Assembly: GCA_902728285.1 (NCBI GenBank) | Contig: CACVBU010000948.1 | Location: 77,190 to 141,189 of the forward strand | Length of the DNA stretch: 64,000 nucleotides | Reading direction: 5' to 3' | From: Clytia hemisphaerica | Taxonomy: Eukaryota > Cnidaria > Hydrozoa > Leptothecata > Clytiidae | Shown here: in pieces, positions 9,689-63,446 of the stretch | Layout: the number at the start of each line of letters is the position of its first letter | Position numbering within the stretch: position 1 is the first letter of the stretch | Made by a program: the position numbers and the translations under genes | The notes under the pieces: model-generated | Seen by the model: the letters and a program-made list of their open reading frames with translations, nothing else | What the model was told of the DNA's origin: nothing | Database searches by the model: none

Positions 9689-12600
9689 TTAATCAATATC
9701 ACTTTCGTTAGAGATGGAGACTTTACTGTTCGAATTTCTACTCCTTTTCATTTTCTTCGCTGATTTTGCTTCTTTGAAAATGTTTTCGAAGAAGTCTTGT
9801 GATTGGACTTGAATATCTTCCAGCACATTGGGATTGTCAATGGAATCAATGAGGCTTGCAGAAGTCAGCAATAACTGTTTTATGTTTTTACGTGTTTCAT
9901 TCATTAAAGTCTCTTTTTCGTTGACAGTAGTCATTTTTGAAGTTTGAACATCAATATCAAAGAACTCGGTCGTAGTGAGGTTTTCATTTGATGGCGAGTT
10001 CAATGGTGGGTTAAAATGATCAATAGTTTGTACAATGCTCTCATCCTCTACCGATTCTTTTGGGTCGTGAAATGGTAGATGTGCTGAAAGTTTTGGAACA
10101 GTAACCTCCAGACTTTTCCAGCCGTCTTTCGTTTCCAGCAATCTCGTATGAATCACTGCAGAACATCCAATCAATTTGGATTCTCTCTCTTTACGCTTTG
10201 GTATCGACTCTACATGTTTTCGCTTTCTAGGACGACCACCCAAAGCACAATTATAGAGTTGGGTTTCTATGGTACTGTATGAAATGATATTACCGTTGTG
10301 GTTAGCCAGTCCGTGATGATCCATCTTTTTATTGACGCGTTTTCCGGTTCGAATACGGTAATTTGTGCCCGTTTCTGTTGAAAAGTCTTTCAGCCATTGT
10401 TTCCACCTTTCTGGTGTGTATGGGTAAAGATAACCACGCGCGTAATCAGTTGGTTTGCGCATATTGGCGACTTTATCAGTTGTCGACTGCTCTTCATCAG
10501 CTGGACAAGATTTCCTTCTGGGTGCAACAAAGGTTATGTCCGCATGATGGATCACTATGCTGTGCAATTCTGCAAAGCAGGATGGCAAATAATTTCGCAT
10601 ACACAATTGCTTGACGTTATCAGGAATTTGTAACGCGGTGTTGATCACGATATTCAAAGGTTGAGCGTTCGGTGCCGTATGGTTACGTTTACGCCGACAA
10701 ACGACGGTACTCAAGCCAAGTTGCTCACAGTCCCCGCAAACGTTGGCCTTTGGCTCGCGATGGTTTTTTTCAGAACGACAGTAAGAAATCGTACGACTAA
10801 AACGAAAACAATGTGTACATCGTCCCAAAACTTCAAAAAATTGACCAGACTCTAAAAGTGGTACGGTGTTCGAAGGATAATTTATTGGTTTTAAAAGTGA
10901 CTTTCCAATCCCTAGACTAGCATGTGCCCCAGCATAAAGTGGTAACGTTTGAAGTCTTGGAGCAAGTGTTCTCAAATTGCTTTTGTCGACATTGATATAA
11001 GTTCCGTGCGAAGCATCGGTTTTAGAGACTATACTTTCAGCAGAATTACTTTTAATTGAAGCATCATTCAGAAATTCTTCCTTTTGATTGCACTTTTGCA
11101 TATCGATTGCATGGTCTGTCTGTTGCGTAACCATTTCTTCTGAATCATCATCCGCTAGATGCATGTATACGATGGAAGTCATTGCATCACTCGTCCCATC
11201 AACTGTCACTTCTTTTTTGGCAACACGTGATGAAGAACATTCTGATTTCACATTCCCTTTTGATTTATCAATATGTTGTTTGCTTTCTCTTAATTCGTTT
11301 TTGATAAATAGATCATTTCTATCCTCCGAAATTATATTTGACGAATCATTAGATAGAAACTGTTTCGATTCGCCCACTATATCATTTTTAGCTCTTTGCA
11401 TGGAGGTATTTGGCGAAAGAAACCCTTGTTTTCTCATGCTATCGTCATGTATGACTGCTTGACTCATCAAAACATTTTCGTTGGTGATCTTTTGCAAATG
11501 GTTCATGTCACCTATTGACATTTGTACTTGGAATTGTGTCAAATTGTTAGCATAATTGATTTCTTGACGACTTTCAATGACCGGCGGCTCAATAGTGAAA
11601 GTATCTGCCACAACACATGATTCTACAGAACAGGGAATCCTTTGTTCGTCGTCAGAATTCAAAGAGCGATCTGCATTAACTTTCAACCCATATTCAGTGC
11701 CACTTTCATTTTGTCTTATGTGGGCGACACCAGACTCGTGTAAGCTTTGTATCTCATCCTGTGTCAGCATCAACGTTTCACCTGGAAATGAAAAAGACAA
11801 CGACTTGGTGAATAGTATTTCAGCATAATTTCTTCCCTAATTGGTTTCAGCATGGAGATAATAAAAATATAGATGGAGATACCACTCCTACTATTCTATT
11901 GTATTGTATCGTTGATAGCAAACTGTTGCTTTGTTGCTTTGGGAAAAAGCCATGAACTTTGCTTTCCCATGAGATAATACTTGAGTTGAAGAGAATTTGA
12001 ATAAAAGCACGCTACATTTTTAATTTGTTCATCTTGTGATGACAGTTTTGTTTATAAAACATAAGAAAACCTTGCAAGAATAAGCACAGAATATCGAATT
12101 TGAAATGTTCGCTGCTCAGGGAATCCTCGGCAAATTTGGTCAATTTCTACATATTTACTAAAGTCTGTCCAGATATAATTGGCAGTGGAAACAAGAATGC
12201 CTGTAACTTTTGATAGTCAAATATAATTATGGAAATTTTTTTTGCTTGTTTTAGAGAATCAAAAGCGTTATATTTAAATGTATTTTTGCTTGAAAAATTC
12301 GCGATTTTTAGTGGTTAAATTTGCGATTGCAAAAATTGAGCTTTTTTTCTACTTATGCTATAACGTTCATTTTTACATCAGTGGTAGTTCAACCTTAGGT
12401 TAAGAAGTTTCTTAAATTTCAAGGGAAACAGAAAAGTCCTTCGGAAGATATGGGACCCGAAATACCCCTTGGTAGCACTTTTCTGTGAAATATCAAATCT
12501 CCAACTTATTACTTAAAACGGGGGTAGTGATATGATTGATAAAACAGTTTTTCGATCATAACACATTTTACGATCTTTTTAATGACCTCATAGCCAAACT

Positions 12601-36226: not shown

Positions 36227-36923
36227 ATGAAGTTATCAACTACAGGGATTATCTTTATTGTTCTAATTTTTACCTGTATGGAAGTGACCCATGCCGGTAC
36301 TTCGTATCAGATCTATGACGGTCACAAACTTGGATTCGGATGTCATAAAGGGTATTGTTGGTCTTATTGTGGTGATTCATACGTAAGTTCTTTTTTATTT
36401 ATTTATTCATTTATTTTTCTTTCATTCATCAATTAAACCACCATACAGTATTTCAAAATCAGCCACATTTCAATCAAAACAAAACAAGATTTGGGCTATC
36501 AGTTTGATTCTGGAAAGGATTGACGGAAGCTTAGTTTTTAATTGAAATCAATAATGTTTTTCGGCGTCATCCAATCACAACCATCCAATTACAATTCATG
36601 ATATTCATAACGTAATGTTTTCTACGGAAATACCCCGGTTTTAGCCAGTAGTGGCAAATTTAAACTAAACAAAAGTTTAAAAAGTATAAAATTTGCCACT
36701 ATTGGCAAAAACCGGGGTCTTTCTGTAGAAAACATTACGTCATGAATATCATGAATTCCATGTCATTTATTTTTATTATTATTTTAATCTTCATATTTTT
36801 CAGGTTGACGGAAAATGGTGTTACACCAGAGAAAAAGGTTTCCATGAGGGTAAAATGTCATGCTCAAGTGACTGGAGTTGCTCTAATAAAGTTTTCAAAT
36901 GTGTAGGTGCTTGTGGAAACTGA
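36227..36923 (+). CDS. secreted eight-cysteine peptide, two exons
   Basis: Exons 36227-36382 and 36804-36923 join in phase 0 (TCATAC|GTAAGT and TTTTTCAG|GTTGAC) to give 91 residues. Residues 1-23 are a signal peptide (hydrophobic GIIFIVLIFTCM, cleavage probably after THA). The mature part has eight cysteines in GFGCHKGYCWSYCGDSY, GKWCYT, KMSC, SDWSC, VFKC and GAC, enough for four disulfides. The CHKGYCWxxC...WCYT pattern is, from memory, seen in small secreted proteins of arthropods; no function is established here. A defence or other secreted role is inferred only from size, secretion and cysteine density. The intron splits the first three cysteines from the rest and contains a hairpin MITE. 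Confidence 0.9.
36594..36757. mobile_element. hairpin MITE in the peptide gene intron
   Basis: ATTCATGATATTCATAACGT, GTTTTCTAC and CCCCGGTTTTAGCCA are mirrored by TGGCAAAAACCGGGG, GTAGAAAAC and ACGTCATGAATATCATGAAT. The arms are about 70 bases with a short loop. It fills about 40 percent of the 421-base intron. Confidence 0.8.
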
Positions 36924-42159: not shown

Positions 42160-43111
42160 TAATAAGCAGTTATTGGACTAAGTCGAATCCAATGAAGCCG
42201 AGTCCAATATCTTTTCTCGTAGCCCAATATTTTTCATATTGGATGAGACTGCGTCCAAATAAATGGTTTATTATCCGTTCATCGCTAAAAGATTTCTCGT
42301 TTTCAAACATAATTCCAATTTATAAGCTCGTAAATCTGGTTGCTTGTGGTAGTTTTTTCGAAATTCTTATTTTTATCTTGTGACGTAACGTCAAAAAGAA
42401 GATGCTCAATTGTCATTGAACTTGTTGTGTGGCGTCAATTTTTGAAATATGCAGCCTCCGTGGAAGCTGAATATTCGAAAATATTGGACAGCAAAGAAGC
42501 CAATCAAATGTCGCTATTTACGCGCGTCGGATAATAATGCAAAACATGTCATCTCATTTTGAAAATATATAAAATTTCCTTTGGTTTTCTTACTGTAAGA
42601 TATTCTCCTTTTGTCATTCTTTCATTTTAGATATTTTGCCCTTTTTGACTATATAATATTTCTGGAAATCAGTGCTTAAAATAATAATGATATAATTACT
42701 AAATTATGCACTATCCCAAGGGCTTTTGATGTGTTCAACAACACTCTACTCGGCGGGTGCGACGCCGGGTGACGGCTAGTATAATATATGAATCCAACTA
42801 AATAAGTCCCCCTTAAAGAAAATTAATTTATTTGTGCATGTACAATTTATTTTATTGGTTACTGCATTGTTATTCCAGTCGGGTTCAGCTTTGATATTCC
42901 GTGATCTGTAGGTTTGAACCTACAGTCATCTTATGAATAATCCTGTAAATACTGGCAATCACATAAATAGATTTTTGCAAATTCTTAGGGGCTTGTGCTG
43001 CTTAATGTTATCTGAGATTTAAAGCACTTTGAATTCTTTTGAGTACATCAATTATTTTATCATTTGTAAAGGAAATATTTATCCGCATCTTTGCGGCACT
43101 TGTTTTGGGTT

Positions 43112-43174
43112 TTCAGAAGTACAATTTCAAACCTCCCGGTAATTAGGCCCCCCGTTTATTTGGAACCTAAGAGT
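43112..43174. repeat. right-end fragment of the 4380-4647 MITE family
   Basis: TTTCAGAAGTACAATTTC, then CCGTTTATTTGGAACCTAAG and AGTA match the right quarter of the 4380-4647 element; the left part is missing. Confidence 0.75.
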
Positions 43175-43619
43175 AATGAGTCAACACTTCAGTTGGGCTC
43201 GGGCAAGCTGGTAAGCATTATAAATATTAGTACGTCAATCTTCAATGTTTAGGCCTCATGAGCGGGGTTGCAAAACGAGCGTTCCATTTTCGCAAAGCGA
43301 AGTATCGTTAACTCACTGCGCCCGCTTCTTTCGAAAGTTAACGCTCGATGCGCTCGCTTCTATCAGTACAATTGGAGTACGTTTTAATATGCCATGCCAC
43401 AGTCAATTCATTATTTCCTGATTTTTTGTTCAAACCACCGAGTAGAATGTAATAAAGATAAGCTTCTTATTACAATAAGAAAACTAAAGGAAATTTTATA
43501 TTTTCAAAAAGGGATGAAATATTTTGCATACTTTCATGTATAAAATATTGGAAAAAGGTAAAAAATTGAAGTATCCTAAAGATGTTTTTTTTGTATTCTT
43601 CACAAAAATGGATCGCCTA

Positions 43620-44005
43620 ACCATGCTTAACAGATTGAATGATGCAACGACGATGGCGGTAATTCTCTCAATGCAATTGGAGTCTCCCGGAATATCATGA
43701 AAATCTGAAAATCCAATAGGAAGCAGATCATACAGGAAAAGCAAAGCATTCTTGGTTGAAGATTATAAAGAATCAAGTGATGCTTATGTAAGAAAGGTGG
43801 AACTTTATAACATGAGGATGAAAGCCGGAGAGAGTTCTAACGACTTTACAAATCGCTTTTTTAAAGCAGCCGAGAAAGTGGACATTGCAGAGAGAGAGAT
43901 TTATTTGTCCTTCTCCAAAGCAAATTACCACCAAATCTGTTGCAAAGCTAGAGGCCAAAAAGGCGACCATAGTGACGGGTGTGGAGGATTCAAGTCATGT
44001 AATTA
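43620..44005 (+). pseudogene. possible retrotransposon gag-like remnant
   Basis: An 84-codon frame from 43752 reads VEDYKESSDAYVRKVELYN then MKAGESSNDFTNRFFKAAEK. It resembles the spacing of Ty3/Copia gag domains (bulky-aromatic, E-S-V-x-D-F). A degraded frame precedes it from about 43620 with a stop near 43697. No protease or zinc knuckle follows. Identification is weak. Confidence 0.3.
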
Positions 44006-45755
44006 ACTGTTGACTGTAACTGTACTGTATTGATTGTATTGGATTGTAACTAGAACCAAACAACAGTTCCAACAGCAATTCTTACCGCTAGAAGCCTTAC
44101 ACGAACCATGAACCATAAAAACAAGAAAAGGATGCACGGTATCACTGCTTCTTATTATAGACTATTTAAAAATATTTTTTTCAATTTTAACTTTAGTTAA
44201 ATTCATTTTTCAAACAGTTATCAAAATAATTTTTCTTTCATTTGTCTGCTAAAATAAATGGTAGCTCCCATAAGTTTGGTTTGAAAAAGTTGTCTAAATT
44301 TTAAGCAATAATAGTTTACACTTGGAAGTTAGACCTGGAAAGTATTTACCTTTAAGTGACGAGTTTTGACGAGAAACTTTGGCAAATGGTAGCTAAAATC
44401 CATTCCATTTTTCATATGAAGTTATGGCAACAAAAAAAATGATATGAAAATCATAAAAACAGTTGATTTTGGCTAAGCACAACAGTAACCATGTTAAGTT
44501 TTGGCAAGTACTATTTGGCCAAATTTTCCAAATTAGTTCCTTAATGTAGTAGTATTTGTTGTCTTACTTTTAATGATAGAAAAGAGCCATGTTTAATAAT
44601 GTAGACTGTCAGCTTTTTTGGAACAAACTTTAATAATAAATTTTTAAACTACTTTTAGCTGAGAATCCAAAACTTGTAGAACAAAAGCATAAGATTAGAA
44701 TATAATCAAAAAAAAACTTTGCGTCGCGTTTTGAACGAGGGATTGAATTTAGTATACCTGTTCTGTTTTCGCATAGTACGAATAGTATAGCGCTTGTGTG
44801 GGAACAACAACTCTACTAAAAAAATCCAAAGCTTGATGGAGATTCTATCCTTAGCTTTGATATAAATTTAAGGTTTAATTCAAGAAAAAGAATAATTCGG
44901 AGTTAAAAATTTATTAAGGAAATACGGTACTCAATACAATGAATATGAATTATTTTAATCAATATATCACATTAAGAGGTTTTGTAGCCACATAATTTTG
45001 AAAATGTTCTCTATTTTGACGTTTTTACGACCCTTAGAGAGGTTATTTTCCCAAAATCTCAGACTTTGGTCAAAATTTCAAGAATCTACCACCCTTTAAG
45101 TTTGAGGGAGTCAATGTTCGATTTTCCCAGTTTTGAAACCCTTAGAGACTAAGTGATTTTTTTATGGTCGTTATAGCCCTTTGAGAGATTTTCAAGGGTG
45201 TGAAAAGGGATCCTTTGTGGCTCGAACAGCCCGGCCCCCATTTTTCCTCAGTGCATCCCTGGGGTTGTAGCTAAGAATATAACTTTTCATCTAGATTCAT
45301 AATATATAATCTTTTTTACAATAAATATATGTTAGATAATATGAGATACTGACCAGCAGTATATTTCGTTAGAAGAAAATTTAAAGAAAATATTCTAGAG
45401 AAACAGGAAGAAACATTTAGAAATGAAACTGTATATTAATTAAATTATTTTCAAGAATTTCTGAGAAAAGATGATTAGCCTGGATCTCCAAGTAATTTCC
45501 AGAAAATGTAGAAGAAAGACTGGTGGGATGATGACAACAGTTTTGAAATTTCAATTAGTTTAGAATGACAAAGTTGTAATAGGGACTAATATGTTAGAAT
45601 TTAAGCAAAAGAAAAACTAAGAAAAAATTAAGGAATGAATATTATATTACCGGTTCAAATTCAGTTTTCAAGAGGGTAAATGAAAATTTAGTTAAAAATT
45701 GAGCTTTTATCCAGACCAGTTTAAAGTTAGGGACTAAGAAAACTTCAGTTCATAC
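44006..45755. other. unassigned AT-rich sequence
   Basis: No exon, domain or clear repeat boundary was recognised in this stretch downstream of the amidase gene. Confidence 0.4.
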
Positions 45756-46595
45756 TTAGTTAAAGTCAATAATGAGTTTCTTGTACTCACCAAAATACTT
45801 ACGTAAGAGAGCTTTCAAGATAGCAAACGTCTCAACGTCCATCACTCCATCAAATTTGCTGTTTCGGAAATGCATTTGGAATCTCTTAACGACAGCTTTG
45901 GTTGCAAGGTCAAAAGCACCTGTAGGTTCGATATTATAACCATACTTCTTCAGGGCCAATTGGTATTCTTTGACGTTGATTTCCATATTTGATGGCATTT
46001 GTTTGATAAAATAATCAACATCCATTTGATCTGGCCATGCTCCAATGCCAGCATCGAACAACTTCTTCCAGGGGAACAATGGCCCTGGATCTTCTTTACG
46101 TAAAGGTGAACAATCTGAGTGACCAATGACATTGTAAGGTTTGATTTTGTACCGCTTGATGATATCTTGTGAAAGCTCGATGACTGATTTGATTTGCGCT
46201 GCATCAAACGGATACCAGATTCGATTTCCGTTGGGAAGGTCGGTGAACCCTTTGTTGACGATTTCAATAGAAATACCTTGATCGTTAAGATTTTGACGTT
46301 TCTGCCATTCGCTGACTCCTTGAGTCCAGGCGCGTTTGTCTTCTGGAACCAGTTGGTAAACGACGCGTTTTCTATTGTGGTAACCTTTAGGGACTAGGTA
46401 GTGTGCGCTGAGATGGTTGGTGAGAAGGTCAACAGATTTGGTGAAGTTGGCAACAGTGTAATGCATTACCAAGAACATCTGGCGATGGTTGAAAGCAGTT
46501 GCTGTGTATTTGTTGCTGAGCTCAAAGCGACGATTTCTTGCAGCCACGGTGATAGTCACAACACATAAGACCAATATGAAGCCTTTAAGGTTCAT
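45756..46595 (-). CDS. secreted AmiD-like N-acetylmuramoyl-L-alanine amidase, intronless
   Basis: Cleaves the bond between MurNAc and L-Ala in bacterial peptidoglycan. The chosen start (46595) gives 279 residues opening with a signal peptide (MNLKGFILVLCVVTITVAA); an in-frame ATG at 46646 would add 17 residues. Zinc ligands of the amidase_2 fold are present: His45 (VMHYT), His159 (VIGHSD) and Asp169 (KEDPG), with the 10-residue spacing seen in E. coli AmiD. Glu111 (GISIEIVN) is at the catalytic site. Whole blocks follow bacterial AmiD closely: AHYLVP, YQLVPE, AWTQGVSEW, DPGPLFPWKKL and GIGAWP. The C-terminal 70 residues match its peptidoglycan-binding-like tail (FQMHFR). The E. coli enzyme is a 276-residue lipoprotein; here there is no clear lipobox. 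It lacks introns, unlike the other host genes here, but has a TATA box and flanking animal-type DNA. Horizontal transfer is inferred. Confidence 0.95.
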   Translation of the reverse strand: MNLKGFILVLCVVTITVAARNRRFELSNKYTATAFNHRQMFLVMHYTVANFTKSVDLLTNHLSAHYLVPKGYHNRKRVVYQLVPEDKRAWTQGVSEWQKRQNLNDQGISIEIVNKGFTDLPNGNRIWYPFDAAQIKSVIELSQDIIKRYKIKPYNVIGHSDCSPLRKEDPGPLFPWKKLFDAGIGAWPDQMDVDYFIKQMPSNMEINVKEYQLALKKYGYNIEPTGAFDLATKAVVKRFQMHFRNSKFDGVMDVETFAILKALLRKYFGEYKKLIIDFN

Positions 46596-46719
46596 TTTGG
46601 CTTTAGTTCCAGATAATATTTTGAGATGGTTCTGCCCGCAGAACATTTTTGTCTCTTCAAGTTTGTCAACAGGTGTTTGAGTTCAAAGCTGGAATGATTT
46701 TCAGTGACAATCTTCAACC

Positions 46720-46726
46720 CTTTATA
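46720..46726 (-). promoter_or_regulatory. TATA box of the amidase gene
   Basis: TATAAAG on the minus strand, 125 bases before the chosen ATG. It suggests a eukaryotic core promoter in front of the bacterial-type coding sequence. Confidence 0.5.
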
Positions 46727-46729
46727 GGT

Positions 46730-49650
46730 TTCCTGCAAGTGTTCTGAAACTAATAGACTGAAATGAAAGACTTTGTACTCATTTACTACTCGGACCTCTC
46801 AATATTGTAAAACTATACTCTGTATTTTAACATCTTTGTTGTAATAAATACTGCATTTATGTATTTAGCTGCATCTGTCTTCGAAATTAATTGAATGGAA
46901 ATCCAAATAAACAAAAAGATTATTTTACAAAATTGATCAGGTCAAGAAACCCTCTAGATACCTTAAAAAGAAATTTATGTGACTGAAAAGGCGACTTATT
47001 AAAGTTATTTTTGGATACTTTGGAAATACAGGCGACACTATTCTAAAAATTGACCTGACCTGTAGTTAACAAAAGGAACAAAAATGGATTTTTTTCTCAA
47101 AAGATGATAAAAAACTTCCGCGATGCGAGTTTCGTTCCGGTTTATTACTAAAAGGAGAGAGCTCCCCTTAAACTTTTTGTGAATCCACAACACGGGAGGT
47201 CCTTACAAGATCCTTTATCCTTGACAGAGCTTAACAAAGAAAATGAACAAAATGACTATTTTTGGTTCCACTATTTTAAGCGAGGGCTAAAAAGGAAGTG
47301 ATTTCAAATTTCTTGACGATCAAAAAGAAAAAATTTAGGATTTTTATAAAGATTTACAAGTTGTAAACGATGACAATAGACCACAGGGTAACTTTTTCGG
47401 ACAAATGGAAAAAAAACCTTGACAGTAGAGCTCGGTATCGAAACTATCATTGATTTGAGTGCCTTAAAAATTCTGTAACACTCACATAACCGTTTTATTA
47501 CAGGATCTGAAAGTAACTTGATCATTGTCGTATAATAAAAATCTTGTTTCAGAAAATCAAATCACATGTTTCAGACTTTCAATCTCGTGGTTTCCAAAGC
47601 CTGAATTTCAGTCAAACTAAATTGAAATTAAAAAAGTCGCGTTAGAAAGAACAACATCTTTTCAATGTACATAAAGCTTCAAAAGTAAAGCTCTTCGAAA
47701 GTTTTAATATTGCAGGAATTATTAAGTTTCCGGACGATTCAGAAGTAGATGTGAAAAATCTTGAGCACAAAATTTTTTATAAAAACAGCTCAGCTTGCAA
47801 GTGAAAAATCTAAAATAAAACTCTTTTAGAAACTCAATCAATCTCAGAACCATATAAATGTATTCTCATAAAATCTGTTCTGGGAAAGCATTAATTCCCC
47901 AGTAGCGTGGCAGTTTGATTGAATTTTGAGCAGCAAGGTAAAGATTTTCTTAATCAAGCAAACTTTGGGCACTGTAAAATGCTTTTTTATGTGAGAAAAA
48001 ATTGAAAAACCTAACATAAAAATGCAGCTGTTAACATTAAAACGCATTTATCTTCAAAAAAAAATAATGCTGAAATCTCGATAAAATGCTCAAAGCTGCT
48101 TTTTACAATCTTTTTTTCCCAAAAAAATCTGGTTCTGTCACATTTTGAGCAAAAGGACGGATCGGAAAAGTTTAGAAAGTTGTCCCTCTGGACACTTTGC
48201 GTGATATTTGAATCTTTTTGGTTGGTAAGAGCTGAAGATTTATCCCACGCGTACGTTTATATTCTGATTGCATAAATATAATTCTCCAAATCATTATAAT
48301 CTGGAATAAATTCTATTTCCAACAATTTAACAAAGAAACGTTTCTGCTTCTACATAATTGATAAGCTAGTACTTTCATATATTGACCTATACAGTACGAA
48401 AGGGAAGAATTAGACAACTTTTTAATAAATGCGTACTAAAACAGTCACGAAAGACCGATTGGGATATACCCAAGGGAACGAACGTACCTAAATATAAGGC
48501 AACTGACTTCTAGTTCAAGTCTTTCCCACTAGTGTTGAAATCTCGGTCTTACGAAATATCTTGTTCCTCTTTTTGCCTGTAAGTGTTTTGAGTGACTTGC
48601 TTTTTTTATTTTTTGAATCAGTCGGATATTTAAGTCCAATCTAACAGATTTAAAACCTTGTAGCTTTTTGCTGAAAATTATAAACAAGCAATGATGATGA
48701 TAATTATTTCAATTAGATTATGCCGACCTATATAACAACAAGACAAGTAGCAGCCCAACATCTAATGAATACTAATGAGGCACCTTATCCATATTTTTAA
48801 GTTTTCTACACTTGAAATTTTCCGCCCAATTTAACGCTGGAATTTTACTTTTACGAAAAAAAAGCAAAAGATAAAACCCAAGCGTAGAAAAAGCCCTAAT
48901 ATTGTAAATACTTTACATTGTCATGCCATAATAAAATTAATAGAACTCTTTTTTAGTTAAGAGCTGCAATAAATTGTCCAAATTGTTTGTTACGAGTGGC
49001 AACTCTGATGGAGAAAACAAAAATATAGGCCTTGCTAATTTATTTTGGAGTTTTTTGTGTAAAGAGGCGTATTGAATTTCCCTTTAATTCAAAAAGAAAG
49101 AATCTTTAATAGCATGAACTACAATTTTTGTATAATATACAAAAATCATCTCTGGACCTCCCATAGGGAATTTTAAAATGCTCTTCGTATTTCTCAAAAA
49201 TATTCACAGGTGCACGACCTCCCAAATCAGGAAAAATGATTTCAATAAAATCTACCTTTAAGTAGAATGGCAAAAGATTGATAAGCTCTAAGGGCGAAAT
49301 TCAATCCCTCTAAATTCTGCCTCAACGAGGGGAAATATTTTGGTGGAAAGAAAAATGGGCGGATCTGGTCAAAATTTGGTCAAATTACTATAATTACTGT
49401 AAGTTATTGTATTCATTCCCCAAATGTGTGCAGATTTTTAAAGCCATCTGCCGAAATTTCTTTCCTCAAGGTATATGATTCCCTCCCTTTTGGTTTCAAC
49501 AAACAGAAAGCCATCATTGAATATAAAATCAAATGCAATGCAACGCCTCAGCATGGGAAATGGTCTAATCGATTGACTCTCACATCAGTCTAAGCAAAAA
49601 ATACTAAAGCAAGTGGTAAAAAGAATCGACTAAAAGACAGATTATTAAAA
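46730..49650. other. unassigned region between the amidase and OCIA-domain genes
   Basis: AT-rich; only short open frames (67-73 codons) without recognisable domains. A final exon of the OCIA-domain gene could lie here because its last visible exon ends in a strong donor, but none was identified. Confidence 0.4.
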
Positions 49651-49651
49651 A

Positions 49652-52600
49652 CTAGAAAAACGACTTACGCGTGAAGCTTTTGGCACGAGCAGCCCGTTTA
49701 GTCGATTCAGAATCGGTTTGTTTATCGGGTTCAAAATGATCTGACCGGAAGCTTGTCATTCGACTGTCATTATCAGCAGAAAAGTTGAGTGCTCGCGATG
49801 ATTTGTCTTCGGTAAAGGTCATTGGTGTGTAGGATTCGATGTCTAGTGGTTTTTTAGTTCGATCTTCAGGTTCCTTTAAAGAGAAAGAAATATTCTTTCA
49901 TTCAGAAAAATATATATAAAAAAAACCATGAGAGAGAATCTCGAAAGTACTTGAAAATTACAGAGAAGCATAGCTTAGAAATGTACCGATTCTTCTGATC
50001 GAGCAGGCGATCCGGGCTGGGATCAGAACCATTATTGTTGCTTTCATGCACAACTCGGTCCAAGCTCCCAAGTGGTAAGCATAGCACCAACTAAATACAA
50101 CAAGTCGTTTACCAAATCTTTAGACTAAACCTCGTTCTCAGAGTATTATCGAGGCTAAATAATGTTCCAGGGCTTATCACTAACGTGAAAGACACAAAAT
50201 AGAAAGGGGCAAGTTTGCAGGCTAATCCGAACTTTGGTAATTAAGAATGTTTTTAACCTCGCTTGTGTCTTCCTGATTAGCTATTCGATTATTGGTAACT
50301 CCAGAAGGTCGGTTTCGTTTTCTTAATTCTTCGTATGTAAGACCTGCGCTTGGTTGATTTGCCGTCGACGAGTTTTTACGGATTTGTTCCCAGGATTTTC
50401 CTTCCTGCATACGATTCAATAAGGGTGAATCGAATTCATTTTTGGTGGATGTTTGTAGTGATAATGGTTGTAGGTGTGCTTCATTGTCTGTTTGTAAGGG
50501 TGTGTCCTCAACTGGTGCGAATTCTTTAAAATATAAAAAAAGACTTGTACACGTTTTAGTAATAGATGTTAGACGGCTTTGTGTCGCTCCAGAATGGTTC
50601 CCCTGGCAGATCGAGAGTGTTCATATTTGTTTCAGAACGTTTCGGAGCAAGAAAACGGAGCAGTTTCGTTCCGACGAGAAAAGTGGAGCGAAACCGATAC
50701 GGAACCGTTACGCCTGAACATGGTCTAAGAGGGTAAATGTACAAGTAGTTAATCACTAGAACAAATAAAGGTGCACTAACCACACCGATAACAATTTTTT
50801 CGGGCAACGCATAATCTTGAAAAGACCCAGCCGAGTTTTTTTATATAAATCATAATGTAAGTAAGGAATAACTTTGTCAAATTTCAAAAGTAACAGCTCA
50901 AAATTCTAAGATAGATTTGGGAACTTTGTTTAGCCTCAATGACACCACCCGAAGTGGTTCTTTTTGTTGATTCCATACCTGATTGCTGATTGGGAAACAT
51001 GCCTCTACTAAAACGAGAAGGAGATATTGAGTATTTAAAACTTTCAGAATAATCGAAAAAAATATTACAATACAGGTTCTACACAGTTTGAGTAAGTTTT
51101 GATTGAAAAACTGGTTTGGAAAGGCCGAATAAGAACGTCTAGAATGTACGTAAAAGTAGCAACAAAGAGTTCTCCTGATTGATTGGTCAAAAAGTACTTT
51201 GTCTTTAGGAGTAAAAAATATCGCAAATTTCAATTACTTTAATATTAATTAAGTTCAGGAAAATATTCAAAATTGAGTGATGGGGAGGTTTACTTACTCT
51301 CTTTGAAATTTGACGAATTGTTCTTTCAAAGATGAATTTTCTAAAGCCATGATTTTCTTGAAGCATGTGTCTTTATATGATGCGATACCAGTGACCATAC
51401 CCATCCCAAAAACACCTGTAACAAAATCAATTTCATAAGTATAAGGAACGTCTATAAAATCAGTGGTTGAAGCAAAGTAGTTCGGTTCAAAAGTAATATG
51501 GTCTCACTCTCTACACAAACTTGTGTAGGGATAGATTGTCGACATTTTACAGATTTGGTATTAACAAAAGAGAAAGCTAACAAAAATTTACAACAATAGG
51601 TTCTAGATCAGGGTTTTTGCACGGACTATGATGACTTTAATATGGCGACCACCCATATTTTAGGACCCATTTCAAGGGTTTCCAGGGTCATTTTGCAACA
51701 ATTTTCAAGGGGCCTTTTGGCAAAATGCTCAAGGGTTTCATGGGTTTGAAAGTCTTGAAAACATAATTTTTTTAAAGTTTCAGGAAAGTTTAAAAAAGTT
51801 CATAAAAACAAACACGAGGCTTCGATGGCCAAAAATTAATTATTGTGTAATAAAAATGACATATTTAAAAGGTTATAATTTGAAGCAAATAGTTTCTTTA
51901 TAAAAAGCAATACACACTTTTTTTTATAAGAATGGTGTTTTTCCTATTCATCATGCTGAATATTCTTAATTTTTTTGGGAATAAAACATCCTCTTAAAGG
52001 GATAATCAGATGGTCTGAGATATTTTGCCTGCAAATAGCTTCTAGGATTTTAGGAAAAACCTCTAAATTTTTCGGTGTACTTATTTTCCTAACTCAAGTT
52101 ATGCCAATTTGAAATCTCGAAAAATGGGACTTTTCAGGGACTTTTCACACTTTTTTCTATTGTTTTCAAAGCAAAGGTTCAAAATTTCAAAGTGGCATAA
52201 CTTGAGTTAGGAAAATAAGTACACCGAAAAATTTAGAGGTTTTTCCTAAAATCCTACAAGCTATCTGCAGGCAAAATATCTCAGACTATCTGATTATCCC
52301 TTTAAGGTATTCTTAGGTTTGGATCCAAACCCACATCAAGCAAAAATTTGGCATTTTTGTGGAAGCTTTTAGCATTTACTAATTGGCAATTTAAGGGTAA
52401 AATGCTCTAAAAATGACATTCTTAGGTTCTGTCTAAAACGATAGAGTTAGCTCATTTTCTTTTATGTAGCTTCAATTTGTTCATTCTTTTAAAGCTATTT
52501 ACTTTTATCCCCATTTTTACAAAAATACTTTTAATGAACAAAAATCCCTTCTAGCTTGCTGAAATTTTTCAAGGGTTTTAAGGGTGTAAATTTCATAGCT

Positions 52601-54592
52601 CAAGGGTCTTCAGAAAATATCATATTTTCAGGGGTTTCAAGAAAATTTTCAAGGGTACAAAAAAACAAGGGTGTTTCAAGGGTTTCAAGGATTTCAAGGG
52701 TCGCTGGCCACAATGCTTTAAGTACATGAACCTACATGATTACTATTTTTGTCTTTCTATCGACCCGTCTGGTTTAATTTTGACCTATCTTTTTAACACC
52801 CCTGTCTCAGTGACTGGGTGGGAATTTTACCGTCATTTGATAAGATATGGGACATATGACAGCGTCAACTTCTTTCAAAATCAAAAGTCTTTCTGAAAGG
52901 GAACTAATTTTGCTAAAAATTGACGCTGTCATAGGTTTACTTTTCCAATTAGCAAATGCAAATCCCCACAGGCTGATACATATCATTAAAATTGTGTTTA
53001 TAAATAAGCTTTCGACTCTTGTTTATCGAGTGTACATTTTTGTAGTGCTCGTTTTCTTAACTCCGTCAAATTAAGATTGTGTTCATGTTCACTTGGTTGA
53101 CGCTTCCAGAGGTACTTATTACTTTTTGCTCTGCTACAAAGATTTCTCCTAAATTAGGTAAAAAAAATTGAAAAAGGTGATGAAAAAGATCACGAGTCAT
53201 TTTGATATTGGATTTCAAAAGCTTAATCATCAACACAGCATTTTGTTGTAATTTTTCGACACGAACTTCCTGTTCTGAATCCATTCTGTGCCGATGTGGG
53301 TATACCGACATGAGTTATGGGAGGGCAAAGATATTCAATCCGATAATGAAAATCGTCACTTCTGCTCAAACAAACTTGGAGATAAATATTGCCCCTTAGT
53401 TCAGTAAAAAAAAAATTTAAGATGTTTTTTTTAGTTAAGCAAAAAAAGAAAAAAAAAGTGCTAAATTTTGACAAAAGAAGTTGTCTGGACAAATTAAAAA
53501 TACAATTAAATAACTTTATTTTTTCTTGGCTTTGAGTTAAGGGTATATTTTCTATCTTTTGTAAATATTTGCAAAAATAACATTTCACACATGTAGAAAT
53601 CTCGTCCATCAGTTGACCGAATTTTGTAAGAAAACTTTACAGCAATTTCAGGGTATATCACATCAAATAAAGTCCCTTATTAAATATTTTAAAGGAATAA
53701 CCAAAACTTACCAAAATAAACAGCTCTGGACCATTTTTTGAGGAACGGAAAATAACCTAAAAGAAAGAAGCACTGTTAGAATTAGCTATTTGTTTAATTT
53801 TCAAAGCCGAAGTGAAGGAAGTAAAAACTAGCCTACGCTTTGAGCCCTTTATACCTCCTTTAAAATAAAATTTCCACCGGCTATAATCTATAAGATTCTC
53901 CAGTTTTTCCATATCCATGGTGGAAAGACATTACTTCGCTCTCCACCGTTTCACTCGATGTCAATCCAGAATCTCTATAATAATTCCATGATAAAATCCA
54001 TCCTAACAGCATAGATAAATTTCATAAATACTTCTATGTTTTTAGTTTTGAACAAAAACGGATAAGTTTTGATTTAGATTTAAAACTTTAATGATAATAC
54101 GATACCTGTGTCAAGGGATGCTTTTGCAATTAAAGCTGAAGCCAATCCAAGCGGGATTCCTATGGTAAAATATTAGGTAGAATTAATGGTAAAATGTTCA
54201 ATTTAATTTCCCAAAAATATTTAAAATCAATTAAAATTAATTTGATAAGAATGTTTGAGACAAATAAATGATACTCTAGAATGAGCAATCTCATTTAGAA
54301 ACTGTATTCATTGTACAATTAATTAATTTATCTATTTATTGACTTTAAAAAAATCAACAAAGTGCTTAATATCCTAATTTGCAGAGCTGCATCATACTTC
54401 TTTTAATAAATGAAGAAACTTTTTCTTTCCAATACTAAAACTTTCTCAGTTTATTAAAGGTTAGAAATCGTATTTACATAGAGATGTGATCTTTGCCAAT
54501 TCCATATGTAAAATTGTATTTAAATTAATACCTCTGTAATACAAACTATTCACTCTGCATTCTTTTAGGACTCGGATCTCATCTTGTGTTAG
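49652..54592 (-). CDS. OCIA-domain protein (OCIAD1/Asrij-like), 5' exon missing
   Basis: Exons (minus): 54592-54532, 54159-54106, 53756-53712, 51415-51298, 51007-50979, 50523-50258, 49873-49669, all in frame at GT-AG sites. OCIA domain over the first four: LTQDEIRVLKECRVNSLYYR, then GIPLGLASALIAKASLDTG, GYFPFLKKWSRAVYFG and GVFGMGMVTGIASYKDTCFKK. This follows the human OCIAD1 order (acidic start, E-C-R, glycine-rich membrane segments). OCIAD proteins sit in mitochondria and endosomes and act in prohibitin/complex III biology; Drosophila Asrij controls blood-cell maintenance. The C-terminal SAGLTYEELRKRNRPSG matches the OCIAD1 tail motif (SYEELRxKNR). The last exon seen either reads on to a stop at 49652-49654 or is spliced at a good donor (ACGC|GTAAGT) to an unseen exon. 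The initiator exon was not found before the retroelements at 54.9 kb. About 260 residues are visible. Confidence 0.9.
51911..52440. mobile_element. second copy of the 27152-27419 MITE family, interrupted
   Basis: Begins CACTTTTTTTTATAAGAATG and shares GGTGTTTTT, CATCATG, ATATTCTTAATTTTTT and GGTATTCTTAGGTT with the 27152-27419 element. At the point where that copy reads CATCC...GGTATTCTTAGG, a foldback element is inserted. Confidence 0.75.
51992..52312. mobile_element. innermost foldback element (CTTAAAGGGATAATCAGA ends)
   Basis: Ends CTTAAAGGGATAATCAGA and complement. The arms run about 110 bases each (TTTTGCCTGCAAATAGCTT, GGAAAAACCTCTAAATTTTT, CTAACTCAAGTTATGCCA and their complements) around a short centre. 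Non-coding. Confidence 0.88.
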
Positions 54593-58170: not shown

Positions 58171-58192
58171 AAACTTCACTTTTAATTTAACA

Positions 58193-60455
58193 TCTCAACT
58201 ATATTTTCTACATAACCATCCCCATTGAAAACTTCAATGACCTGACACACAGTCGTAATAATAGAAATAACCATCAAATACTTTCTAGCCACACAGACTT
58301 TTTCAATTTTCTTGACAATCATCTTCAGAATGACATCATTGATTCTTTCTATGATATCAGAGTTGCACTTAACAGGCTAAAGAAATCGACTTTGAAGAAA
58401 ATTGCTTCCGAAATTATCTCACGTGGTCCTTTGGTTTCTCTTGACTCTTTCTCTGAGCAACACTATCTTTACATTTTGGATATCATCGAAACTCTTATTT
58501 ATATTCCACTCCCTAGTAAAGCAAAGAAAGTAGCACCAAAACATATTTGCAATGTATTTTTTGACAACAAAGCCATAGAACTCATTCATCTTCCTTCTAT
58601 TTTAAACCAACCTGACATTTTAGAACTTCTTCCTGAACCTTTGACGACCAAAGAAAATAGACCAGTTGTAACTTATTCTCTACATAAAACTATACGAAAT
58701 AAAATTCTCAATTATCAAGACACTGTAAATTCTATTTTTATCGATGATGAGGTCTCATTTACACTTGACTCTGATCGTTGTGAATGTGTTAATTCAGAAT
58801 TTTGTGATCCTTTCCACCAACACATTATAACTGGTGATTTGAGAATTGTAGAAAATTCTAAATTACGTAAACTTTTAACAAAAGGCCCCAACTACCGTGA
58901 ACCAAAACGTGTAAATTTTAAAAGAGCTTTAGAAAATATCATTACTAGTTTAGATGAATGCATTGATACTTTAGAGCAAAAAACTAAATTCAAAGCTAGG
59001 GCATTTAAATTTTGGAGGGACACAATTATTTCGAAAGTTGAAATTAAGATTAGAAAACTCAAAAAGAAAACGAAAATACATGACACTAAACCTATTCTAA
59101 AGAATCCAGAAGTGCTGGCATATCTGGAAACCTTACAGAAAAGATTTGTCATTGTCACAATCGACAAAGCATCTAAGAACTTTGCTTTGATTTGTAAAAA
59201 GTTTTATGTTTCTAGATTACTGAGAGAAATCTCTGGAAATAACACCTATCAGCCTTCTAATCTTGATTTGAACTCCATTTTAGAAAATAGCGAAAACTTG
59301 TGTAAAACATTTGGATTATCATTATCTGACAAAATGAAAACTCTCCCCATTATGTATTGGATTCCTAAAATGCATAAGAATCCTATTGGTTGCCGCTTCA
59401 TCATTGCTTCCAAATCATGTAGTACCAAACCGCTGTCTCGTGCTGTATCCATGGTCTTCAAAGTTCTATACAAACATGTTGAGCAATTCCATCATAAATC
59501 TCGTTTCTTTTCTAGTTTCAATAAGTTCTGGGTTGTACAAAATTCTTCGCCTGTTATTGGACATCTTAACAGAATCAATGCCAAGAAAAAAGCAAAACGA
59601 ATTTCGACATTCGATTTTGCAACACTGTACACAACCCTTCCACACGATCTTCTCATTGAAATTTTAACCAAAATTATTAACTTTGTGTTTGATTTAGGTT
59701 GTAGAAATAAACTTGGTTTTTCAAATACTTCAGCATACTGGACTACAAAAGGGAAGGATGGCAGGTTCTTTACTAGTACTTCACTGTCTGAGTGTGTGTC
59801 CTTTCTGATAAAAAATTGCTTTTTCAAAGTTGGCAATTCTATTCTTAAACAGTGCATTGGAATTCCCATGGGAATAGATCCTGCTCCTTTTTGGGCAAAT
59901 TTGTTTTTGTACCATTTTGAATCTGAGTATGTCAAAGGCCTCATTTCTGCTAGTTCGCCTAGTGCCTATAACTTCCACTCTGTAGGTAGATTTATTGATG
60001 ATTTGTGTGCCTTAAATGACAGAGATGAGTTTCATAATTGCTACAAACAGATTTACCCTAAAGAACTAGATCTCAAAGTTGAGCACCATGGAAACCATGC
60101 ATCGTTTTTAGATTTAGATATCACCGTTGAAAACAATATTTTTAGATATAAACTTTTTGATAAGAGAGATGCCTTTCCCTTCTTCATTGTAAGGATGCCA
60201 CATGCCGACAGTAACATCCCATCGTGCATTTTTTATGGATCCGTCTTTTCAGAAATTTTACGGATAGCACGTAGCACACTCATGTTTGAAGATCTGACTC
60301 CTAGAGTCACTGAGCTTTTCATTCGAATGCGAAACCAGGGTGCTTCAAACGCTTTCTTGAAGAAGCAAGTTGTCAAATGTTTTTCCAGGTTTCCTGACTG
60401 TTTTATGAAGTATGGGAAAACCGTCGAAGAATTTTTACATATTTTCAAATTGTGA
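58193..60455 (+). CDS. Penelope-like element reverse transcriptase of the CxC (Naiad) type, long intact frame
   Basis: The frame is open from a TAA at about 58190 to TGA at 60453. The ATG-less first 200 bases read through (DFFNFLDNHLQNDIIDSFYD) into a 687-codon stretch conventionally started at a TTG at 58392. The CxC linker motif, DRCECVNSEFCDPFHQHIIT then GDLRIVENSKLRKLL and KGPNYREP, comes before the reverse transcriptase. Palm motifs are whole: motif A STFDFATLYTTLPHDLL, motif B QCIGIPMGIDPAPFWANLF, motif C RFIDDLCALND, and motif D HHGNHASFLDLDI. In Naiad-type elements a GIY-YIG endonuclease lies at the N-terminus, ahead of CxC. None is visible here, so the copy looks 5' truncated, or its endonuclease was replaced at the SINE boundary. 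No stop or frameshift in about 750 codons suggests recent insertion. Confidence 0.88.
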
Positions 60456-60858
60456 AATTGTTTCTTGTGTATTGTATGTGTGTTTGTATGTGTGTTTGTT
60501 TGTTTGTTTTTTTTTTTTTTTTTTTTTTTCTCTGTCTAAAGAATCAGCATTACCATAGGAGGTATTCATTTCCTACTTTTCTTTGCCCTGTGCAGTTCTC
60601 CCGTCGCGGCACGCCGAACCGGGTTCTCGGCCAACTTACGATTCTATTCTTTTCAGTTTTTGTGTGATTTTTTCTATTTCTATGTAAGATTGTGTTTGTT
60701 GTAATGTCTGTTTGTTGTCTGTTATTTATTTGGAAGCTGCTGGTCAGTTCCTTTTTCTATTATGTTTTCCGAAGGCGACTGAGTGTGGGCCCTTAAACAC
60801 GTGGAAAGTCACTATGCCAGTCACAAGTCTGGGACTTCGGGTTTTGTTTTGTTTATGT

Positions 60859-60908
<50 letters not shown>

Positions 60909-61285
60909 TTTGATGTGTTTGCTTTTGTATTTGTCCCCATTTTGTATGTATTTTGATGAACTTACGGAAGTGTGTTTATCAAAAAAGTTTTTTGCAATTC
61001 ATTGTTTCTCCACTATTACTTTTCTTTTGTCTTCATTTGGATTTGGTTTAGGTTTTTCTTCACATACCACTATTTAATTCCCTTTAACTTTTTGCTAAAT
61101 TACCCTCTGTTTCGGAATGATTAAAAAATAAAAAATACCAAAAAAATCGTAAATACACACAATTAACAAAAATATTCTTAACTTTTTTCGTTTTTATCAG
61201 TTTGAGTTATTTATATATCAATACTTTTCTTTTTCTAAAATGACAGATATTACATATCTTCACTATATATATATAAAATTTAAGT
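60456..61285. other. 3' flank of the Penelope-like element: GT-rich and poly-T microsatellites
   Basis: After the stop come TATGTGTGTTTG runs, a T-run of about 23 (60508-60530), a unique stretch with CCGTCGCGGCACGCCGAACC, a T-run of about 33 (60869-60902), and a short (TA)n at 61264-61275 immediately before the next element. Simple repeats fit the microsatellite insertion bias described for Naiads. Confidence 0.55.
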
Positions 61286-61288
61286 ATA

Positions 61289-62086
61289 GACGGATCTGAT
61301 CTTCTCAAATACAAAAACAAATCCAATCGAGACAACAACCAGACACTCTTTATCACCACCTTCAACAAAAACCTACCAAACATACGTGAAGCAATCAATA
61401 AACACTGGGACATACTAAAAATAAATGACGAACTAGCAGATACTTTTAACGAACAACCCAAGATCGTATATAGAAGAAACAAAAACCTTCGTGACCTAAT
61501 AGGTCAAACAACAATAAAAAATAATAAAGTATTTAGAAAATCCCACACACTGAGAGAAGGCAAATGTCGCCCATGTCTCACAAATTCCAGAAACCTTTGC
61601 TGTCGTCAAGTAACCACAACCTCCACGTTCGTGTCACAACAAACAAAACGCCAGTTCAAAATATTCCACAATGTCAACTGTAAAAGCAAATACGTCATCT
61701 ACCTACTAGAATGTCAAATCTGCAAGATCCAATACGTCGGTAAAACTGAAACACCCTTCAACGTCCGTTTAAACAACCACAGAAGCAATGCACTTCATCC
61801 GAAAGAAGACACCATCCCAGCGTGCAAACACTTCAACAAGGAAGGACATAATTTCAATAGAGATGCTAAATTTACGATCATTGAACAGCTAAGAAATATC
61901 GAAGGAAATGAAAGCCAGCTGAAAAACACCATTCTATCACGAGAGAACTTTTGGATCAACAAACTAAAAACCTTAAAACCAAGAACTCAATTTGATAGCG
62001 CCTTAAGTCTGTGTTTACACGTCCATTTTTTCCAGATCACTTACAGACGGCTCATAAATATACGTCACAAAAAAGCGTTTATTTGA
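61289..62086 (+). CDS. C-terminal part of a second Penelope-like element: linker and GIY-YIG endonuclease
   Basis: The frame is open from GAC at 61289 although the first ATG is at 61631. It gives NIREAINKHWDILKINDEL, VYRRNKNLRDLIG and the C-rich GKCRPCLTNSRNLCC, then the endonuclease: KYVIYLLECQICKIQYVGKT (GIY and YIG strands), FNVRLNNHRS (catalytic Arg), ACKHF and ENFWINKLKTLKP. The CCHH set typical of Penelope endonucleases (LEC, QIC, NNH, CKH) is present. The reverse transcriptase part is missing: the copy is cut at the (TA)n tract. This is the canonical order (endonuclease C-terminal), so a different clade from the 58193-60455 element. Confidence 0.9.
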   Translation, partial: DGSDLLKYKNKSNRDNNQTLFITTFNKNLPNIREAINKHWDILKINDELADTFNEQPKIVYRRNKNLRDLIGQTTIKNNKVFRKSHTLREGKCRPCLTNSRNLCCRQVTTTSTFVSQQTKRQFKIFHNVNCKSKYVIYLLECQICKIQYVGKTETPFNVRLNNHRSNALHPKEDTIPACKHFNKEGHNFNRDAKFTIIEQLRNIEGNESQLKNTILSRENFWINKLKTLKPRTQFDSALSLCLHVHFFQITYRRLINIRHKKAFI

Positions 62087-62133
62087 CGTCAAAAAATTTT
62101 TTTTTTTTTTGTTAAAAAAACTGAATTTTTTTA

Positions 62134-62188
62134 GCTAGAAATATACCTTGAAAACGGCCCTGGCCGAAACATGTTGGAAATTTCTAGC
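62134..62188 (+). ncRNA. hammerhead-like ribozyme remnant at the Penelope junction
   Basis: Outer stem GCTAGAAAT (62134-62142) with ATTTCTAGC (62180-62188). Inside it CTTGAAAA stands where CTGATGA is expected, then stem II CGGCC-CT-GGCCG (62155-62166), then GAAAC (62166-62170) and ATGTTGG. The order core-stem II-GAAA within a closing stem matches minimal type I hammerheads known from Penelope-like elements. The CTGATGA core is degenerate, so self-cleavage is doubtful. Confidence 0.45.
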
Positions 62189-63446
62189 ATCTAATGGTAT
62201 TTTTGTCTCGATCCTCCGTCCGATATATTATTTTATTTTCGAGATGACCAATCGTAGCCAATCTGCAACGCATCTGACTGGGAAAATCAACTTCTTTCCA
62301 GCTAGATCAATCAACAATAACCCGTCAAAACGACGTAGACAAGATGAAGTCGAACAGCCAAACACGTCGAACTTCCTTCCTCCACCGCTAATCAACGTGA
62401 CTCCACCACTGCAACAAAGTGATTCAGAAAGAACAATCACCCAATCCATTGGTAATCAAACCCAAAGCCACTACCAAGCAGTTAAATGGGATAGACTCAT
62501 CGACAAAAGTGACAGATATGACTCACATATTGGCTTTTTGAAAAAATGTATAGCCAACAAAGTAATCCCAAATGGTCTTCGCTTAGACCTGGAACCTACC
62601 ATTGGTAATCACGACGATACCTTCCTAAACACATGGTACTCAACCCTTCAAGAGTGTTCACTAAAACTTATGTCACACATCGTCGACTTCTCAGAAAAGA
62701 CAAATGAAGCAACGACTAACAAAATTAAAGAAGCTGAAGAAGCTATGAAAACCAACGCAAGTACAGCCGAATTCGATCAAATCAAAAAAACTCTAAAAGA
62801 TAACCAAGACAATCGAAAACGCCAACTTCAATATAGAAAAAATAACAAATATAACAAACTTAAATACCAACCCCACCAAAACCAAAGACCCCAACAGCAA
62901 ACTAACGCTGAAGTAAGAACTCCCAGACCCATACTGAGCAGAACCGAACAACGTAGCCGATCCCGCAGTAACAGCCGAAACAGATATCCAACCTATGCTT
63001 CCATTGTCAAAAAGGATAGTCGAACAAACAATTCACAAAGACAACGTATGAAGAATGATGTATATGGAAACAAAACTATCCAAAAGCTCCAGCAAGAAAT
63101 AAATGAACTAAAAGCACAATATCATTCAAAAAACTTGCAACCAGCCCCTCACAGAGGGGCTCCCATACCACACTACCAAATACAACAAACCCAACCCCAA
63201 GAGCAACCACAAAACCAACAGCACCCAGCACGTGTTGATGGGTGTTATATTTATACCAAATATATATACCAAACCCTACCCCGAGAACAACTACAAGAAC
63301 AAACAAACGCACCACCGCAAGCACAAACACAAGAAATGACAACAACAGATATACTAAATCTAATACACAGCACTATGCAAACTTTAAACGCATTCGCGAC
63401 ACATTTCGAACAACACAACACGCAACAGACCCTTCAGGGAATGTAA
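62148..63446 (+). CDS. ORF1-like N-terminal polyprotein part of the third Penelope-like element
   Basis: 432 codons; a likely alternative start is the ATG at 62244 (MTNRSQSATHLTGKINFF), just after the junction. Contains a conserved-looking block (WDRLIDKSDRYDSHIGFLKK, GLRLDLEPTIGNHDDTFLN), then a basic, Gln/Asn-rich region (RSRSRSNSRNRYPTYASIVK) and a coiled-coil stretch. Such upstream ORFs occur in some Penelope-like elements; the specific role is unknown, RNA binding being plausible from the Arg/Ser/Gln content. It ends in TAA at 63444-63446 while the reverse transcriptase frame is already open in the -1 frame. Confidence 0.75.
   Translation: MKTALAETCWKFLASNGIFVSILRPIYYFIFEMTNRSQSATHLTGKINFFPARSINNNPSKRRRQDEVEQPNTSNFLPPPLINVTPPLQQSDSERTITQSIGNQTQSHYQAVKWDRLIDKSDRYDSHIGFLKKCIANKVIPNGLRLDLEPTIGNHDDTFLNTWYSTLQECSLKLMSHIVDFSEKTNEATTNKIKEAEEAMKTNASTAEFDQIKKTLKDNQDNRKRQLQYRKNNKYNKLKYQPHQNQRPQQQTNAEVRTPRPILSRTEQRSRSRSNSRNRYPTYASIVKKDSRTNNSQRQRMKNDVYGNKTIQKLQQEINELKAQYHSKNLQPAPHRGAPIPHYQIQQTQPQEQPQNQQHPARVDGCYIYTKYIYQTLPREQLQEQTNAPPQAQTQEMTTTDILNLIHSTMQTLNAFATHFEQHNTQQTLQGM

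Follow-up and report, generated by a model that had tools for sequence, protein, structure and literature searches.

A bacterial AmiD-type amidase gene probably captured by a hydrozoan ancestor

We examined a 64,000-nucleotide stretch of DNA, here called the window, which holds an amidase gene that was probably captured as a bacterial amiD by a hydrozoan ancestor and then domesticated as a secreted peptidoglycan amidase, a reading drawn from sequence comparison. Capture of amiD by animals is already known, having been reported for aphids (PMC2829048, PMC9116674) and for the psyllid Diaphorina citri (PMC9116674); the hydrozoan, and more broadly cnidarian, host group and the changed residues described below appear to be new. 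A preliminary description of this DNA had proposed that an animal captured a bacterial AmiD, and the capture itself is well supported by a megabase contig, host exons and bacterial relatives, while its statements on introns and on the donor class are less secure.

The reading frame, its domains and its signals

The amidase gene described earlier corresponds to a minus-strand open reading frame of 279 codons and a stop (Table 1), and an in-frame ATG upstream at 46646 would give a protein of 296 amino acids. The 279-residue frame has the domain layout of AmiD, an Amidase_2 domain followed by a PG_binding_1 domain. The best match among solved structures is AmpDh2 (PDB 4bol, E = 2e-60, aligned residues 5-262), which we take to be the Pseudomonas aeruginosa protein, followed by E. 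coli AmiD (PDB 2bh7, 6.8e-58, aligned residues 23-267) and AmpDh3 (7.5e-49), with AmpD far weaker at 3e-12. The frame scores 75.6 bits against the NCBIfam AmpD model NF008758, under its curated cut-off of 143. Likeness to AmiD along the whole protein, as had been claimed, is borne out by this homology to AmpDh2 and AmiD, which covers nearly the full length and is far beyond chance. Both of these proteins are bacterial lipoproteins; they have the domains and the metal and catalytic residues in common with the hydrozoan frame, and differ from it in their conserved WHAG motif and bacterial gene structure.

Table 1. Features of the AmiD-type gene and its neighbourhood, in window coordinates
Feature	Position	Strand	Basis
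AmiD-type amidase frame (P0001), 279 aa	45756..46595	(-)	N-acetylmuramoyl-L-alanine amidase by domains and structure matches
N-terminal signal sequence MNLKG-FILVLCVVTITVA-A, without LxGC lipobox	46539..46595	(-)	By eye from translation
Amidase_2 catalytic domain, residues 41-172	46080..46475	(-)	Pfam, 2.6e-24
T91-Q92 replacing the near-invariant H-A of WHAG (giving WTQG)	46320..46325	(-)	Alignment
S109 replacing invariant Gly (GIE to SIE)	46269..46271	(-)	Gly in 79/79 bacterial rows
PG_binding_1 domain, residues 207-260	45816..45977	(-)	Pfam, 5.5e-14
Pair of candidate 5' splice donors: GTAAGT (45802), GTGAGT (45790)	45785..45802	(-)	Motifs
Candidate 3' splice acceptor, pyrimidine-rich, TTCTTCCTGTTTCTCTAG, before 45394	45395..45412	(-)	Motif
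TATAAA	46721..46726	(-)	Motif
First AATAAA downstream of the frame	44910..44915	(-)	Region 44501-47400 examined
OCIA-domain exon, profile 6-24	54533..54592	(-)	E 0.0016, 18.8 bits, under curated 25
OCIA-domain exon, profile 63-86	51300..51413	(-)	E 0.00072, 20 bits, under curated 25

Animal PGRPs share their fold class with AmiD, and those that are amidases would work alike, as secreted zinc amidases on peptidoglycan, which lends a divergent animal PGRP what plausibility it has as the identity of the frame. We consider this reading extremely improbable. The seven PDB sequences matched by phmmer at up to E = 10 include no PGRP chain, and AmiD and AmpDh2 are matched at 1e-58 to 1e-60; no relation of animal amidase PGRPs to the frame is thus detected against solved structures, and the distinctness from PGRPs asserted in the preliminary description stands. 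The frame also carries a C-terminal PG_binding_1 domain, which we know of in no animal amidase PGRP. A search of the 417-Mb assembly for the Amidase_2 family finds one locus, the AmiD frame itself, from which the single-copy reading of the gene is taken, and it finds no PGRP, within the reach of a search run exon by exon, which may overlook a PGRP whose coding sequence is divided among short exons. PGRP identity was rejected on this single Amidase_2 locus together with the lack of PGRPs among the PDB matches.

E. coli AmiD and many of its relatives show a lipobox (...LLLAGC) at the N-terminus. At the same place the hydrozoan frame has no L-x-G/A-C but a stretch that looks, on inspection by eye, like a secretory signal, in agreement with the earlier claim that such a signal stands instead of a lipobox. 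The outer-membrane lipoprotein lipobox that the frame lacks is also absent from a signal-less group of bacterial AmiD proteins. Upstream of the frame, a TATA box had been proposed and is found as TATAAA.

Two GTRAGT donors lie within the last 60 nt of the frame, near residues 265 and 269. None of 20,000 codon shuffles had two donors in that interval, a figure that overstates the weight of the pair because the pair was noticed before the shuffle test. Several candidate acceptors follow the donors, the one listed in Table 1 being the richest in pyrimidines. Long bacterial matches mostly end at residues 263-273, which, taken with the donor positions, suggests that the last 11 residues (GEYKKLIIDFN) are probably intron read-through and that the gene probably has an intron near its 3' end. 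In view of the two consensus donors and the shuffle result, the description of the gene as having no introns is doubtful.

Genomic setting and host

The genome examined is a 417.4-Mb assembly of 951 contigs, and the gene lies on a contig of 1,333,610 bp. The same assembly includes a 14,551-bp mitochondrial contig, of which 9,000 bases were read by code 4, and the genes, named from their translations, run on one strand in the order nad2, nad5, nad6, nad3, nad4L, nad1, nad4, cob, cox1. For one hydroidolinan, collinear nad2-nad5 and nad6-nad3-nad4L-nad1-nad4 sets and a cob-cox1 boundary have been described, and a similar organisation is reported for many other non-aplanulatan hydroidolinans (Kayal et al. 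2015, PMC4655093). The order on the mitochondrial contig matches these sets, so the host genome is most likely that of a hydroidolinan hydrozoan. GFP, sought as a further host marker, gave no match, a result that carries no weight either way.

About 5 kb upstream of the AmiD gene and on the same strand, two exon-like stretches match successive parts of the OCIA-domain profile and have splice-type signals around them. The spliced host-gene flank that had been claimed is therefore recovered, with its splicing predicted from motifs and profile order, and the AmiD gene sits beside this OCIA gene within the megabase contig. Among 72,556 plasmid records, none matches the flanks at 42500-45700 and 46650-50000. 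The GC content of the frame is 41.7% vs 34.6% for the window, and the observed/expected CpG ratio is 0.83 in the frame and 0.82 in the window, compared to 1.04-1.19 in three bacterial loci, measured on whole loci and not on the genes alone.

These features bear on whether the gene comes from bacterial contamination or a chimeric contig, which we regard as very improbable and for which no evidence was found. The megabase contig carrying host exons, the flanks without plasmid matches, the signal sequence without a lipobox, the splice-like donors and the host-like CpG all speak against it, as do the bacterial matches, the closest of which, as far as seen, reach only 49% over most of the length, so that none of the sampled sources can have contributed it as a recent contaminant. 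Contamination was rejected on the lone Amidase_2 locus on a megabase contig, the OCIA exons and the flanks without plasmid matches.

The window holds several other features. A Penelope-like element at 58191-63446 joins RT, GIY-YIG and Gln/Asn-rich frames in one array; its RT frame (58392-60455) matches RVT_1 at 1.6e-5, under the Pfam cut-off, its GIY-YIG frame (61631-62086) matches at 2.1e-7, and the Gln/Asn-rich frame has no Pfam match. Frames resembling these RT and GIY-YIG ones were noted by eye in the adjoining stretch of the contig (L101). An apparent two-exon gene at 36227-36923, read by eye, would encode a small secreted cysteine-rich peptide, with a signal sequence and a GCHKGYCWSYCG motif, a donor TAC/GTAAGT and an acceptor TTTTTCAG, and its exon 1 has no Pfam match. 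An uninterrupted frame of 703 amino acids at 9689-11800 likewise has no Pfam match. A long imperfect inverted repeat at 51990-52310 (GATAATCAGATGGTCTGAGATATTTTGCC ... GGCAAAATATCTCAGACTATCTGATTATC) resembles, by eye, a MITE-like palindrome.

Bacterial relatives and the age of the transfer

Matches to the frame occur in 400 of the 72,556 plasmid records, all below 60% identity. Identity is up to 46% for plasmid matches with a query coverage of 80% or more, and up to 55.6%, over 19% of the query, for short matches confined to the C-terminal domain. In the phylum of genome G001, 159 of 398 sampled genomes match at E <= 1e-20 (best among the matches listed, 49%), and in the class of genome G179, 4 of 369 match at E <= 1e-58 (best 49% identity); both sets are samples, and nearer relatives may exist. 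Phage records match in 16 of 50,697 cases, the best among 15 listed being 43.7%. A single-protein scan of genome contigs gave one weak relative, and none of nine pattern matches in viral contigs was confirmed.

A phylogeny of AmiD homologues, suggested in the preliminary description as a check, was built with bacterial rows only. The first tree joins the query to 79 such rows, 11 from named plasmid records and 68 from the 398-genome sample, and places it inside a 63-row AmiD-type group with support of 100/99. A second tree, with 74 rows, puts the query at the base of this AmiD group, in an open fork (100/97). Both trees favour a place with the AmiD proteins. Among partner groups chosen for AU testing after the tree had been seen, the signal-less accessory group was rejected (p 0.0019), while the test retained both the Enterobacterales accessory group (p 0.112) and the alpha-type rows (p 0.155) as partners. 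The claim that the protein is of gammaproteobacterial type is accordingly suggested by scores and trees, but the AU test keeps the alpha-type grouping as well. From these comparisons, the source is bacterial and, as far as sampled, proteobacterial.

The bacterial AmiD subgroup without a signal peptide, whose members start like MY.IDYNSYR (L005, L009, L010, L029, L045, L084), occurs on Arsenophonus, Acinetobacter and Pseudomonas plasmids as well as in other genomes. On a Pseudomonas avellanae plasmid (L010, 983-2762) a gene for an LD-carboxypeptidase is found close to that for AmiD, and aphids captured this same pair of enzymes.

Judged from the sequence and compared with bacterial rows only, the transfer appears to be old and integrated and not contamination: top identity is at most 49%, CpG is host-like and a signal has replaced the lipobox. 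A different history, in which AmiD was present in animals before cnidarians diversified, was inherited vertically and was lost elsewhere, would also suit bacterial matches of at most 49% over most of the length, and an AmiD/AmpD homologue is reported from Trichoplax adhaerens, also a non-bilaterian host, and described as distant from the aphid gene (PMC2829048). We hold this ancient-gene history to be unlikely; the same report infers independent transfers for the aphid and Trichoplax genes (PMC2829048).

Capture by a hydrozoan ancestor has its closest described counterpart in the aphid gene (Acyrthosiphon pisum ACYPI006531), a captured bacterial AmiD that likewise keeps the Zn triad and the C-terminal tail (PMC2829048, PMC9116674) and appears to have one intron (PMC2829048), comparable to the probable hydrozoan one. 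The aphid gene is reported to have its top match in Orientia, to be upregulated in bacteriocytes and to be accompanied by LdcA (PMC2829048, PMC9116674). The hydrozoan gene differs in its cnidarian host, in three changed near-universal residues and in that no LdcA was found with it: a search for PF02016 gave nothing in the genome and, as a control, recovered the family in 6 of 14 control genomes. As far as PF02016 tells, the aphid peptidoglycan set is therefore not repeated here. The D. citri amiD is described as an independent animal capture too, in an insect (PMC9116674).

Active site and possible function

The zinc ligands H45, H159 and D169 are present where the preliminary description had placed them. 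Together with E111 and K167, which we take to be catalytic from work on AmpD and AmiD, they are kept in the frame and invariant in 79 of 79 bacterial rows. The broader statement that all active-site residues are kept is correct for these five, but H91, A92 and G109, three near-invariant residues, have changed. His is found at position 91 in 61 of 62 AmiD-clade rows and 17 of 17 alpha-type rows (78 of 79 in all) and is Thr in the hydrozoan frame, and Ala92, present in 79 of 79 bacterial rows, is Gln. Since they belong to the WHAG and GIE motifs, the three positions would lie near the pocket or the catalytic Glu, so that activity may be altered: H91T, A92Q and G109S may mean a changed substrate or a slower enzyme, or may be neutral. 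A structure prediction made without an alignment had a mean pLDDT of 34.6 and was not used.

Across the protein, 41 of 45 near-invariant columns (at least 95% conserved among 62 bacterial AmiD-group rows) are kept in the frame, and 16 of 77 of the most variable columns agree with the commonest residue. This pattern fits what is expected under selection on the protein, some of which may have acted while the gene was still bacterial. Non-catalytic PGRPs only bind peptidoglycan, and the same captured gene might likewise encode a protein that has lost or changed its catalysis, so that it just binds peptidoglycan or cuts another substrate. The three substitutions point this way, as does R238, at a column that is Ala in 60 of 62 AmiD-clade rows; against this, H45, E111, H159, K167 and D169 are all kept and would be needless for a mere binder, and we think such a loss or change of catalysis unlikely.

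We propose that the ancestor of a hydroidolinan hydrozoan took up a bacterial, probably proteobacterial, amiD that became fixed in the nuclear genome. A eukaryotic secretory signal would then have displaced the lipoprotein signal, and the gene would have gained host-like CpG, a promoter of the TATA type and, towards its 3' end, probably one intron, with promoter use and splicing predicted from motifs. Entry of the protein into the secretory pathway is most likely, and it would be secreted to act at the epithelial surface, in the gut cavity or in phagosomes. There the zinc amidase would cut the MurNAc-L-Ala bond of peptidoglycan and remove stem peptides, and the C-terminal domain may help the protein to hold or dock on the wall. 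Its role could be that of amidase PGRPs in other animals, which deal with fragments of bacterial wall by clearing, detoxifying or digesting them.

The cnidarian Nematostella and the sponge A. queenslandica are reported to lack PGRPs (PMC7308585), and since the family search of the assembly yielded none either, a captured amidase could fill the place of a PGRP. It is possible, and we advance it tentatively, that in a PGRP-less hydrozoan lineage the captured AmiD is now a secreted, intron-bearing amidase of immunity or microbiome control, its pocket remodelled (WHAG to WTQG, GIE to SIE), and an independent replacement of PGRP function. Hydra itself has PPOD, a further family attributed to gene transfer from bacteria (PMC3531485). 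Among the titles and abstracts listed by searches of open-licence papers, none reports a cnidarian amiD.

For the question of how an enzyme acting on the wall is retuned after capture, the three changed residues are a concrete starting point. Laboratory culture and manipulation are possible for hydrozoan polyps such as Hydra and Hydractinia, which makes a role in shaping bacterial partners directly testable. If true, the capture would be one more instance, apparently independent of those in insects, in a series of animals that took up amiD. Provided that the protein is produced and works as an enzyme, the captured gene would have brought peptidoglycan hydrolysis to a cnidarian that may lack the usual animal amidases.
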